Origin: Cristatella mucedo
Taxonomy: Eukaryota; Bryozoa; Phylactolaemata; Cristatellidae
DNA: 64,000 nt
Direction: 5' to 3'
Assembly (NCBI GenBank): GCA_009760855.2
Contig: WPIO01000051.1
Span: 92,001-156,000, forward strand
This document shows, piece by piece, positions 3,359 to 34,369 of the stretch. Both the position numbers and the translations under genes were made by a program. How positions within the stretch are numbered: the stretch's first letter is position 1; each line of letters opens with the position of its first letter. The notes under the pieces are model-generated. The model searched no databases. It saw nothing but the letters and a program-made list of their open reading frames with translations, and was not told the DNA's origin.

Positions 3359-3517
3359 CTGTTTGGCTCGCAGTTGCCGTATCTCGTCCTCCTGCCGCTC
3401 CCGCTCCTGCTTCAGGAGCTCCTCGGCTTCGCTCAACTTCCGGGCGTCCTCCGCTTCCTTTTCCTTCCGCTTCTGCTCGTACAGCAGCTCGCCCTCGGAC
3501 TTCTCTGCCTCCGACAT
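3359..3517 (-). CDS. First coding exon of a putative troponin T gene
   Basis: The exon starts at an ATG in good context (GCCGCCATCATGT) and runs 53 codons in phase 0 to a consensus donor (CAG|gtgaga). It begins MSEAEKSEGELLYEQ and is then almost entirely charged helix ending KQERERQEDEIRQLRAKQ. Troponin T anchors the troponin complex to tropomyosin; its N-terminal helix in protostomes has a similar Lys/Arg/Glu pattern ending in an EKQ or AKQ block (family knowledge, not an alignment). It lies downstream of the troponin I gene on the same strand. No later exon is in the window, so the rest would lie left of position 1. It could instead be another coiled-coil protein or a troponin I paralogue. 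The exon itself is convincing; its identity is moderate. Confidence 0.5.
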
Positions 3518-3796
3518 GATGGCGGCGGGCAGGCAACAATCGAACTGCAGCGCATCGAAAGTGCGCTCGCATTCCATTCCGCGAGCCTAGAGAGCCGGAG
3601 AGCGCCAAGGCAGCGCCGGCCGTTTGTTCCGACGCTTGTCTCTCGCACCGCAGTGCGTTAGCCGCGCCCCAGGGCGCTCGCTCTCTCTCTCTCTCTTTTG
3701 GTGGGCGTCGCGACGATAGTGCGTCGTTCGGGCCAATGTGGTTTTCAGTAGTACAGCGAGCGAGCCGGACTGAGCCGACTGCCGGAGGGTGAGCGC

Positions 3797-31900: not shown

Positions 31901-34369
31901 CCGCAATCTCGCCGCCGTCCGAAAGTCGACCGCCGGTGTCAGCAGACGCTGCTCGCAGACGCTGCTCGCAGACGCTGCTCGAAGACGGACGGGCTGGTAG
32001 CGGAGCGCCTGAGCGGAGCACCTGCGAGTTTCGCCTCGCTGCCGCCAGGCGAAATTCGTGGCCTCTTGGCCTGCTCTCCCGAGTCGAGTCCGAGAGCGCG
32101 CGGCGGCAGTACGGCGAATCGGCAATCAGACGCCGTTTACGTAACGACCCTCGCCGGCCGCACTGGCCGGGCGGGATTACGCCCACTCTCGGGGTCGCAG
32201 AGGGCGTGTGCCCCAACTTCCGGTGAATTGGCGTGCGGCGGAGGCGGCGGCGGCTGCCTCGTACCGGAGCTGCGCGAGAATTGCTCTGCCTTGACCAGCA
32301 GCGCCACGCTAGACCGCATCAGACAGGCTTAGTTAAGACTGCCTACGTCATTGCTGACGCCCCTTTGACTACCCATCGTCTTAGCCTTAGGCGGAGACGA
32401 GGCCCCAGCCAGCATTTGTAAGCCCTGCAGCTGGCAATCCTATGCTGCCTGCAGGCAGGGAGTGGGAGTGACGGGAGCCTCTGTGGCCTCATTCTTCTTC
32501 TTCATCTTCTATGTAAATGAGACTGCTGAATCAGCTAACCCACGCTTTGCTTTACTTAGATAAATGGATTAGGAGCGATGGATTAGACTATTAGGACGGA
32601 TAAATTAGGAACAGCTGTCGATGGGAAGCTTAGGCGTGCCTTTACCGTCGACCTGTCGGGGCACACTCGTTGAGAGTTTTTTCGAAGCCCTTGTCCTTGT
32701 AAGGAACGTGTGCTTCAAACTGTAGGAGAAGCCACGTAAACGCAAATGGAATGTCAAAAACCCTAACCAACTTGTGACTGGCTTGTGTCAGAAAGTACTT
32801 TACAAAAGATCAGTGCTAGGAGTGTAAGGAGCTGTAGCAGCTAGCTCTCAATTGGTAGAGCCGTGCTCTTGAGTTGCAAGCTAAATCAATGCATCACTGC
32901 TCCTCGCTGGCGCCAGCTGTCGCGTACAGCAGCCCGCCGCTCTGGCACCGCAGGCATCTCGCAGGCCAAGCGAGGTGGCTAGGGAACGTGTTAGCATTAT
33001 TTGATAACATTATTATTATTATTTATTAACCTTATTTGATTGGAATTCAGGACGCCCTAGAGCAACCATTTGACGCCAACCCCACTCCAAGCGCAACGGA
33101 GCCTCAGCGGCACCGGCGACGGCAAATTCCGAGAGGACAAAGTTAGTAGAGCAACCTTACCCTTTTACGCTCTTTAGATAGGCCAGCTCGTCACTCTCGT
33201 GGTCTCCTATGCGGGACGAGCGGAGCGGAACCGATGAACAGTGACCTCGACCTTGAGTTGGCGAGTAACCTTCGGCTGCGTGCATACATACGGCTATGCA
33301 GACACGTGCCGCTGGCGTACAGCCGCAATAAGAGAGTCTGGCAGGTAATTTCCTAGATTATTTCTTTGCGACAGAGTATTGCACAGATTTACGTTCAATT
33401 TTCTAACGCTATTTTAGTGAAGAAGAGCTTTAATAACGCATTCAAGGTTTGCGTAAGATTTGACCAGAATTCGTCGAATGAACTGCACCTATCGCCCACT
33501 GAGAGCATCTCTCGGAGTTTGCCCAAGAGATAGCACACATTGTACGCACGGCAGAATACCCCCCCCCCGATTGAACCTTTTCTTTTGGTAGCAACATTTT
33601 GGTATGGCGTGGAGCGCGCTGCGCGCGAAAGAAGTGGAAAGCTTCTTTCGCCAGGCTTTGTTCTGGCAAGCACGCCGTGGCAAGTTTCATCGGGCACTTT
33701 TGGGCAGGCGTAATAATCCTCAACTAATCCTAAAAACAGTAGTACTAAATATCATATTTATGTTATAATTCCTATCATTATTAAGATATTTATATAGCAC
33801 CCTTCGGGAGCTAAACCTCTTTTTAGGCACTCTGCAAATGCTGCAAAGGATTTTGCGTGCGAACGCTTGTGGACAGGTCAATACGCTTGCCGGCATTTCA
33901 CAAGCTCGCTAAGACTGCCAGCTTGCACTGCGACGCTCTTTTGAGACTCGATAGGGGTTACAGCGGAGCTTTCGCAGCGTCCTTGGGCATGGGAAGCAGT
34001 CGGCCAGAGCAGTGCTGGGTGCTCAGCGCTGCTCTGGCCGAGCGGCACTCGCACGCCTGACGCTGTGCGCACGAAGCGGAGAGCGCTCGGCGGAGCAAAG
34101 AAAAGCCCAGCGGCCCTAGCGGCAGAGGTCTGAGCCGCCGCCGCCTCTCGCGCCTCAAGCGCCTCGCTCTGCGCAGCGACGAGGTGGAACGCGAGGGCTC
34201 ACCTGTCGTAATTTGCCTGTAATAATTTGCGAGCAGACGTATTTAGGCACGCAACGACGGCGCTAGCGGCGACCTATGCAATGGCGGCGGCGGCGACGAC
34301 GCGTAGCACTCACGCTTCGGCAGCTCGGGCTCTCCTCCGTGCTTCGCGGCGTTCGTCGACAGTGGACAT
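25772..34369 (-). CDS. TnI: Troponin I gene, eleven coding exons
   Basis: Troponin I is the inhibitory subunit of the thin-filament troponin complex; with low Ca2+ it blocks actomyosin. Exons (minus strand): 34369-34314, 28747-28618, 28510-28388, 28246-28019, 27711-27649, 27513-27427, 27111-26991, 26682-26582, 26423-26380, 26187-26146, 25904-25772. They sum to 1128 nt, 376 codons, with every phase agreeing. Domains: variable N-terminus (1-103); Arg/Glu/Gln-rich helix (104-200); troponin C/T-binding helices with GLGGLSPEKRK, KAAEEMR and LEDEKYELE (201-303); inhibitory and switch region with INELTLKVNDVKGKFVKP and KKISKTESK (304-332); C-terminal part with FRTELKSTGKSKYALDDE. The long N-terminal extension resembles molluscan troponin I; arthropod and vertebrate proteins are usually shorter. 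A LINE sits in the first coding intron. The final exon is unresolved. Confidence 0.9.
25975..26090. repeat. 18-bp tandem repeat and (CCG)n in troponin I intron
   Basis: Three copies of an 18-bp unit (GGCGCAAGCACGCCGCCG) are followed by CCGCCCGCCG-type repeats. It lies in the intron between exons 11 and 10. Confidence 0.9.
26146..26187 (-). CDS. TnI: Troponin I exon 10 (inhibitory peptide, second half)
   Basis: 42 nt between TTTCAG and AA|gtaata; encodes VKPVLKKISKTESK. Reading through the donor gives an immediate stop (TAA), so splicing failure would truncate the protein right after the inhibitory peptide. Confidence 0.9.
26380..26423 (-). CDS. TnI: Troponin I exon 9 (inhibitory region, first half)
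   Basis: 44 nt between TTTAG and TT|gtgagt; encodes INELTLKVNDVKGK plus the first two bases of Phe. This block is one of the most conserved in protostome troponin I. Confidence 0.92.
26582..26682 (-). CDS. TnI: Troponin I exon 8 (coiled coil with troponin T)
   Basis: 101 nt, acceptor GCTGCAG, donor GAG|gttcga (weak +3 to +6). Encodes ELDRLCKQIHDKIAHLEDEK and YELEQKVRKQDLE, the I-T arm helix. Phase 1 in, phase 0 out. Confidence 0.9.
26991..27111 (-). CDS. TnI: Troponin I exon 7 (troponin C-binding helix)
   Basis: 121 nt, acceptor TTGCAG, donor CAG|gtagga. Encodes KIIMEKAAEEMRIQAQKKLE and continues to QPLKLDGLG. The KAAEE and PLxLDG blocks are typical of troponin I. Confidence 0.93.
27427..27513 (-). 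CDS. TnI: Troponin I exon 6
   Basis: 87 nt, acceptor CTTTAG, donor AAG|gtaagg. Encodes ERLQKEKEAKKKGKKGLGGL and SPEKRKVLK. The GLGGLSPEK block before the troponin C helix is the clearest family signature in the gene. Confidence 0.93.
27649..27711 (-). CDS. TnI: Troponin I exon 5 (uncertain 3' end)
   Basis: Acceptor CTCTCGCAG; encodes EKEAEEQRKKEEAERLAKEE, then E. No GT donor fits the family sequence. The frame needs phase 0 and the best end is a GC donor (GAG|gcaaaa), or another GC three codons later. Either joins in frame to exon 6. Confidence 0.7.
28019..28246 (-). CDS. TnI: Troponin I exon 4 (N-terminal extension, internal duplication)
   Basis: 228 nt, acceptor CTGCAG, donor CGG|gtgagc. 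Encodes 76 residues of almost pure Arg, Glu and Gln, predicted as a highly charged helix. Residues 8-28 and 29-49 of the exon are near-identical copies of a 21-residue unit (QERRQxxEEQEQQRRR), so the exon has grown by a 63-bp tandem duplication. A Gln6 run follows. Confidence 0.85.
28388..28510 (-). CDS. TnI: Troponin I exon 3 (variable N-terminal region)
   Basis: 123 nt, acceptor GTGGCGGAG, donor GAC|gtaagt (consensus). Encodes EQRAASSVSREPLGDARRLH and continues to SEDDSSAKAASD. Not conserved in the family; supported by splice sites and by phase 0 agreement on both sides. Confidence 0.72.
28618..28747 (-). CDS. TnI: Troponin I exon 2 (variable N-terminal region)
   Basis: 130 nt, acceptor GATCCGCAG|C, donor CCC|gtgagt. 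Encodes GGGDATAAAAAPTEASERRS, then RRRRGDEEDSG and a Ser/Pro/Ala-rich end. The single leading base completes the Ala codon left by exon 1, and the exon ends in phase 0 as exon 3 needs. No homology support. Confidence 0.6.
28931..30522 (-). mobile_element. 5'-truncated LINE with target-site duplication
   Basis: LINE body about 28942-30511, flanked by the same 11-bp GCGGCGGCGCA at 28931-28941 and 30512-30522. The minus-strand frame (29310-30614) has reverse-transcriptase motifs in order: LLVLLDLSAAFDTIDH, YGVPQGSVLGPVLF and FYADDTQLY (catalytic Asp pair), then the C-terminal SRLDFCNTLLTGLP and RRSCHITPLLADLH. The C-terminus is disrupted by a ~75-bp local duplication at about 29331-29415. The 3' end has the family stem-loop and an (ATT)n-like tail. 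It lacks an endonuclease and cannot move alone. It lies in the first coding intron of troponin I, 184 bp before exon 2. Confidence 0.94.
30523..30900. other. Non-coding intron stretch
   Basis: The original CpG-rich DNA resumes after the LINE, then turns AT-rich near 30.66 kb. No exon seen. Confidence 0.4.
30901..30989. repeat. (CA)n then (TA)n microsatellite
   Basis: About 15 CA units followed by TATATA runs. Confidence 0.95.
30990..33774. other. Non-coding intron stretch
   Basis: AT-rich to 31.5 kb, then GC-rich with a 14-bp unit (CAGACGCTGCTCG) in three copies at about 31945-31983. I find no further troponin exon with matching phase. Confidence 0.4.
32838..32910 (+). mobile_element. tRNA-like head, decayed
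   Basis: AGCTCTCAATTGGTAGAGCC resembles the D-arm and A box of a tRNA, with a plausible anticodon stem after it. The B box is not recognisable. Probably a remnant of a SINE. Confidence 0.3.
33775..33860 (-). mobile_element. LINE 3'-end fragment
   Basis: ATATAGCACCCTTCGGGAGC followed by CTCTTTTTAGGCACT and TGCAAATGCTGCAAAGGA is the family 3' stem-loop on the minus strand. Only the tail remains. Confidence 0.7.
34001..34040. repeat. 16-bp hairpin, one mismatch
   Basis: Arms CGGCCAGAGCAGTGCT (34001-34016) and its near-exact complement (34025-34040) with an 8-nt loop. It is too short for a microRNA precursor. Confidence 0.85.

Follow-up and report, generated by a model that had tools for sequence, protein, structure and literature searches.

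In vertebrates, troponin I (TnI) and troponin T (TnT) genes form linked pairs in which TnI lies upstream of TnT on the same strand. Here we describe two such pairs in an invertebrate genome, starting from a window of 64,000 nucleotides (C464:92001-156000; positions given below without a contig name refer to this window) that contains a TnI gene and, downstream of it, the probable start of a TnT gene. The vertebrate pairs named by Joyce et al. (2022, PMC9825255) are TNNI1-TNNT2, TNNI2-TNNT3, TNNI3-TNNT1 and TNNI4/5-TNNT4. In that account three of the pairs have SYT paralogs nearby, and the neighbours named are SYT, LSP1/CALD1, LAD1, DNAAF3 and PTPRO. The same source describes a tandem of TNNT genes together with a TNNI-TNNC cluster in amphioxus, and gives the number of TNNI and TNNT genes as one each in Ciona and two in lancelet (PMC9825255). 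The 3' exons common to TnT and TnI have been considered possible remnants of an ancestral gene, according to one earlier report (PMC2447309). Two further papers deal with the vertebrate pairs and with troponin trees, and their sections on these subjects do not treat linkage in protostomes (PMC5062619, PMC5167519). Among the papers listed by a literature search of open-licence PMC articles, none dealt with a protostome TnI-TnT pair.

The genome (572,011,866 bases in 688 contigs) contains one pair on contig C464 and another on contig C442, whose genes we call TnI-A and TnT-A, and TnI-B and TnT-B, respectively. A search of the genome for the Pfam Troponin family (PF00992, curated cut-off 26.2 bits) gave four matches, two on each contig, and both times TnI lies upstream of TnT on one strand. 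On C442 the matches are at 9041964-9042071 and 9065323-9065517, both on the plus strand. There, exon matches place TnI-B between ~9,039,600 and a stop codon at 9,043,279, and TnT-B follows at a spacing of ~15 kb on the same strand. On C464 the pair lies on the minus strand with a spacing of ~22 kb, measured from the end of the last TnI-A exon found (C464:117,772) to the start of the first TnT-A coding exon (C464:95,517). Furthermore, a genome search with the TnT core exon (73 aa) recovered the two TnT loci and hit TnI-A only weakly (E 0.23); both of the TnT loci found have a linked TnI. The original prediction had placed TnI upstream of an exon at 3.4 kb on the same strand, and our results confirmed this order and strand. 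Linkage of TnI and TnT is a feature of this genome, and it is more certain than the assignment of the 3.4-kb exon discussed below. As in vertebrates, TnI adjoins TnT and there are several pairs in the genome, with the same order and strand.

The gene in the window is a genuine troponin I. Its exons between 27513 and 25772 (minus strand, as are all TnI-A exons) have AG/GT splice signals and agree in phase. The joined model of 290 residues matched the Pfam Troponin family with 112.9 bits (E 1.8e-32, positions 1-132 of 134), and a search of the PDB with the core and C-terminal part ranked cardiac troponin I first (1.1e-20), with troponin T at 4.2e-6. Read in the direction of transcription, this part of the gene begins with the exon ERLQKEKEAKKKGKKGLGGLSPEKRKVLK (27427..27513; AG acceptor, GTAAGG donor, phase 0), followed by KIIMEKAAEEMRIQ...LDGLGA (26991..27111), which falls within the Pfam Troponin match. 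The core coiled-coil exon ELDRLCKQIHDKIAHLEDEKYELEQKVRKQDLE (26582..26682), recovered in the PF00992 genome search and bounded by splice sites (donor GTTCGA), ends in a phase-0 donor at a position common with troponin T. The exon INELTLKVNDVKGKF (26380..26423) contains the start of the inhibitory region and VKPVLKKISKTESK (26146..26187) continues it, both being placed by splice signals, phase and sequence comparison. The C-terminal exon LAKYEKKNQDLAAGFRTELKSTGKSKYALDDE... (25772..25904), defined by splice signals and phase, is the last one found. The inhibitory region, KGKFVKPVLKKISK, thus spans two exons after the coiled coil and agrees with that of fly TnI.

Upstream of these exons the model is less firm. 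A charged exon encoding SRRAREEQERRQNDEEQ...RRQR (28019..28246; CTGCAG acceptor, GTGAGC donor, phase 0) joins the downstream TnI-A exons in phase and would provide an N-terminal extension, being presumably included in the mRNA. The exon EKEAEEQRKKEEAERLAKEEEAKE (27640..27711) has a CTCGCAG acceptor and an uncertain 3' end, with no GT donor at the end as drawn. A candidate first coding exon, MSTVDERREARRRARAAEA, was tentatively placed at 34314..34383 (ATG at 34369, TTTGCAG acceptor, GTGAGT donor). The phase-2 end of this exon does not match the phase-0 start of the charged exon, and we identified no exon that would bridge the two, which weighs against the 5' part of the model and suggests that TnI-A has either a missing exon or another first exon. 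Of the TnI gene predicted to extend over 25.8-34.4 kb, the exons from 27513 to 25772 are upheld by splice signals, phase and Pfam, and the 5' part up to the ATG at 34369 is only tentative. A cassette at 28.4 kb (AAASEDDSSAKAASD) was left out of TnI-A because its phase does not fit TnI exon 1.

TnT core exons, which the original prediction proposed to look for left of position 1, do occur there, on the same strand as the 3.4-kb exon. Positions 1..3358 would form part of a TnT-A intron, and the gene runs on left of the window to C464:80640 (minus strand throughout). An exon of 29 codons with a phase-0 start, here called exon B (C464:84686-84600), is conserved in TnT-B, its counterpart there lying at C442:9061967-9062053 (plus strand, 29 codons). 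The heptad-repeat core exon (C464:82535-82317), which contains KTKEELEAEKRAVLSQRIVPLDTSGLDVSQLIEKAKDLHEKLYHLECEKYDLEEGVKRRQYD, coincides with the Pfam Troponin match at C464:82311-82520, which lies 9.5 kb beyond the left edge of the window. Comparison of the two loci shows 14, 12 and 31 changes in this exon at the first, second and third codon positions, the third position having the most. The terminal exon, PKVEVASKYERKLDRRTFGEKVKSYESFVL followed by a stop codon (C464:80732-80640), was assigned by its match to fly troponin T (C464:80732-80652, 52% identity, E 3.7e-5). The matching part of this exon carries the C-terminal stretch P K .. VASKYER, which we take to be the C-terminus of protostome-type troponin T. 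When exon B and part of the core exon were joined (94 aa), the PDB search ranked troponin T first (6.7e-9), with troponin I at 2.9e-5, and the joined TnT-A model reached 37.6 bits against Pfam Troponin. The genes described here resemble up and wupA of Drosophila in the VASKYER motif, in core TnT residues and in the TnI inhibitory region.

The four genes share features expected of a common origin. A tree of 10 rows, six of them taken from vertebrates and fly, places TnI and TnT in separate groups with support of 99/99, the TnT-A and TnT-B rows covering only 46% of the tree columns. In all four genes the 13 residues that begin with the tyrosine of YDLE/YELE end at a phase-0 donor, a homologous position that agrees with descent of TnI and TnT from one gene. 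A recent segmental duplication of the whole locus is disfavoured. When 94 kb of C464, read in its minus-strand frames, was compared with 50 kb of C442 (5 kb of that being N), 2415 rows resulted, of which 184 were kept after filtering (plus-strand target and E of 0.5 or less, with non-unique and low-complexity rows removed). In these filtered lists, which cover one strand of C464, no gene-like match other than the TnI and TnT exons was found between the loci, suggesting that the duplication is not recent.

We consider it probable, and the best reading of these results, that both pairs derive from an ancestral bilaterian TnI-TnT pair homologous to the vertebrate TNNI-TNNT pairs. An ancestral tandem would explain most simply the agreement in order and strand, the common descent of the genes and the intron position that both have. 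A tandem duplication in an early bilaterian would have given rise to TnI and TnT, the two would have stayed together, and a later duplication would have copied both genes at once, within this probable lophotrochozoan lineage or before it arose. Judging from family membership, and presuming that the genes are expressed, the products would act in the thin-filament switch of muscle, TnI as the usual inhibitory subunit and TnT as the one that anchors to tropomyosin. The original prediction had suggested that the linkage is older than the split of protostomes and deuterostomes. The linkage itself is real and its order is repeated on C442; its age, read from one non-vertebrate genome, is our preferred interpretation and is unproven. 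We lean slightly toward a more specific version, in which the head-to-tail pair is a direct relic of a tandem duplication in the bilaterian stem that vertebrates and lophotrochozoans have both retained over a span exceeding 500 million years and that was doubled independently in each, the absence of the pair in amphioxus, Ciona and flies being due to loss. If so, the long retention of the pair would hint at shared muscle regulation. The presence of two same-order TnI-TnT pairs in an invertebrate indicates that the arrangement may be very old, raises the question of why TnI and TnT would stay together, and makes the ancestral-tandem hypothesis directly testable across protostome genomes.

Several observations count against such a deep ancestry. 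Within the tree, TnI-A and TnI-B group weakly (82/83), and the order among TnT-A, TnT-B and fly TnT is not resolved. In Drosophila, wupA (TnI) and up (TnT) are not known to be adjacent, unlike the genes described here. No vertebrate neighbour was found by either pair. SYT paralogs were sought exon by exon through their C2 domains, and among the 51 best candidates in the genome none comes closer than 300 kb to a pair. The nearest (C442:8,729,857-8,730,036) is ~310 kb from TnI-B, and in this respect the two pairs may differ from those of vertebrates. Likewise, a Pfam search of 20 open reading frames (ORFs) of the window, picked by eye (10 between TnI-A and TnT-A and 10 upstream of TnI-A), gave no match at E 0.01, although short exons could escape such a search. 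Positive evidence for flanks common with the vertebrate pairs was thus not seen in the C2-exon and window-ORF searches. In addition, Joyce et al. (2022, PMC9825255) describe TNNI and TNNT as not being in close proximity in amphioxus or Ciona, in contrast to the paired genes reported here. Since the invertebrate chordates examined lack the linkage, the vertebrate pairs could be a late re-association. An ancestral pair would therefore require losses in amphioxus and Ciona, and also in Drosophila.

These same observations on amphioxus, Ciona and the missing vertebrate neighbours favour an alternative in which a rearrangement in this lineage joined unlinked TnI and TnT genes and the resulting pair was then duplicated once. 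A single linkage event can yield two pairs. However, the joined genes would have to fall by chance into the vertebrate order and strand. By simple arithmetic, the probability that one of two TnT genes lies at most 40 kb downstream, on the same strand, of a given TnI is ~7e-5. We regard independent linkage as unlikely, though it is the most serious competitor of the ancestral pair.

The exon at 3.4 kb (3359..3517, minus strand) has 53 codons, MSEAEKSEGELLYEQKRKEK...RQLRAKQ, running from an ATG to a phase-0 GTGAGA donor. The original prediction had read it as the first exon of a troponin T and had named its identity as the weak point. This doubt was fair, as the exon alone gives no family signal. 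The Pfam search with the 53 residues returned a single line (TPX2, E 7.2), which we dismissed as noise, no PDB chain was matched up to E 10, and in a comparison with fly troponin T 93 of 500 shuffled sequences scored as high, which is no better than composition. Between the exon and its copy on C442, 28 codons are changed, 21 of them non-synonymously and 7 synonymously (13, 12 and 19 changes at the three codon positions). Codon change alone is thus no proof of coding, and the argument is carried by the open frame, the position and the phase. The remainder of the TnT models also has gaps that speak against the assignment: exon B of TnT-A is followed by GCAAGC and would need a GC donor, its TnT-B counterpart having GT (GTGACG); a scan for phase-0 open stretches in C464 from 82.3 to 80.7 kb revealed no convincing candidate for an exon between the core and terminal exons of TnT-A; and a terminal exon of TnT-B was looked for and not found.

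Despite these points, the exon is very probably the first coding exon of TnT-A, as judged from the following comparisons. A genome search with the 53 residues found only two places, the window and C442:9058670-9058828 (plus strand), where the match covers all 53 codons at 60% identity (E 1.1e-8). The latter, which we take as the first coding exon of TnT-B, sits between the second TnI and the second TnT core in the same order and on the same strand, and this position of the sole other genomic match raises the exon above chance. At both loci the phase-0 end of the exon fits the phase-0 start of exon B. Furthermore, the two exons joined scored better against fly troponin T than 496 of 500 shuffled sequences (4/500 as high), better against human cardiac troponin T than 486 of 500, and better against fly troponin I than 440 of 500. 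The core and terminal exons on C464, the counterpart on C442 and the agreement in phase therefore support the predicted troponin T.

The lack of a credible Pfam or PDB match, the shuffling result of the isolated exon and the 21 non-synonymous changes among 28 would also suit an exon of another coiled-coil gene lying between TnI and TnT, with TnT starting elsewhere. Such a gene would have to be present at the equivalent place in the second locus, on the same strand and upstream of TnT exons, its exon agreeing in phase, on each contig, with the conserved TnT-like exon that follows and gaining the joined score reported above, and we consider this explanation highly improbable. That the exon opens a second troponin I gene, as its charge (N-terminal extensions of TnI are charged too) and a 20-residue stretch of a TnI-A exon 65% identical to it (E 0.91) might suggest, is strongly disfavoured, since PDB ranking and the tree identify the core exons that come next on this strand as troponin T, and since the genome search gives two TnI cores, each of them upstream of a copy of the exon.

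The surroundings of the pair on C464 hold other features. Among the flanks, 242 ORFs of at least 110 aa had little repeat, 227 of which passed a low-complexity filter, and Pfam was run on one flank ORF. A single-frame ORF at C464:30,549-32,288 (minus strand), ~48 kb beyond TnT-A, encodes an SK-type small-conductance calcium-activated potassium channel (PF03530, 2.3e-14). An Rfam search of the window matched no family. The TnI-TnT intergenic region contains a 35-bp minisatellite (17466..18338) of ~25 copies with 95% matches, which is not a functional part of the pair. A repeat family with a reverse-transcriptase-like tail (LVQNSAARLVCRERRSCHITLLLADLHWLPVKQRIDFK) occurs in the window at 13282-13836, 23196-23564, 41303-42089, 48159-48620 and 63239-63685, and also on C442. 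It has many copies, several of them with stops, and a Pfam search with three of the stretches (13282, 23196 and 48159) gave no match.

A 21-kb mitochondrial contig (C688) allowed us to consider the affinity of the genome. COX1 was read with code 5 and contains 11 AGA/AGG codons, 2 AAA, 12 ATA and 15 TGA, at sites that presumably are conserved serine, lysine, methionine and tryptophan, respectively. This usage would speak against the mitochondrial codes of vertebrates, ascidians, echinoderms and flatworms. The genes ND1-ND6-CYTB-ND4L-ND4-ND5, named from their translations, follow each other on one strand. The same block is reported in the nemertean Lineus viridis (PMC2728741), and entoprocts, phoronids and some molluscs have a cob-nad4L-nad4-nad5 block according to a report that also describes gene order as highly variable in several of these phyla (PMC3285623). 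Taken together, the code and the arrangement of the mitochondrial genes suggest a lophotrochozoan affinity, as far as can be read from the contig. A search for the hemocyanin beta-sandwich domain, intended as a marker of molluscs, gave 0 matches, a result that carries no weight either way. ND2 and COX2 lie on the strand opposite the other genes read, and one segment of the contig is present three times, with one copy inverted. COX1-like stretches were also found at C166:4375626-4376390, C83:2826-3735, C549:2641741-2642010 and C299:634220-634540, and are likely nuclear copies of mitochondrial DNA.

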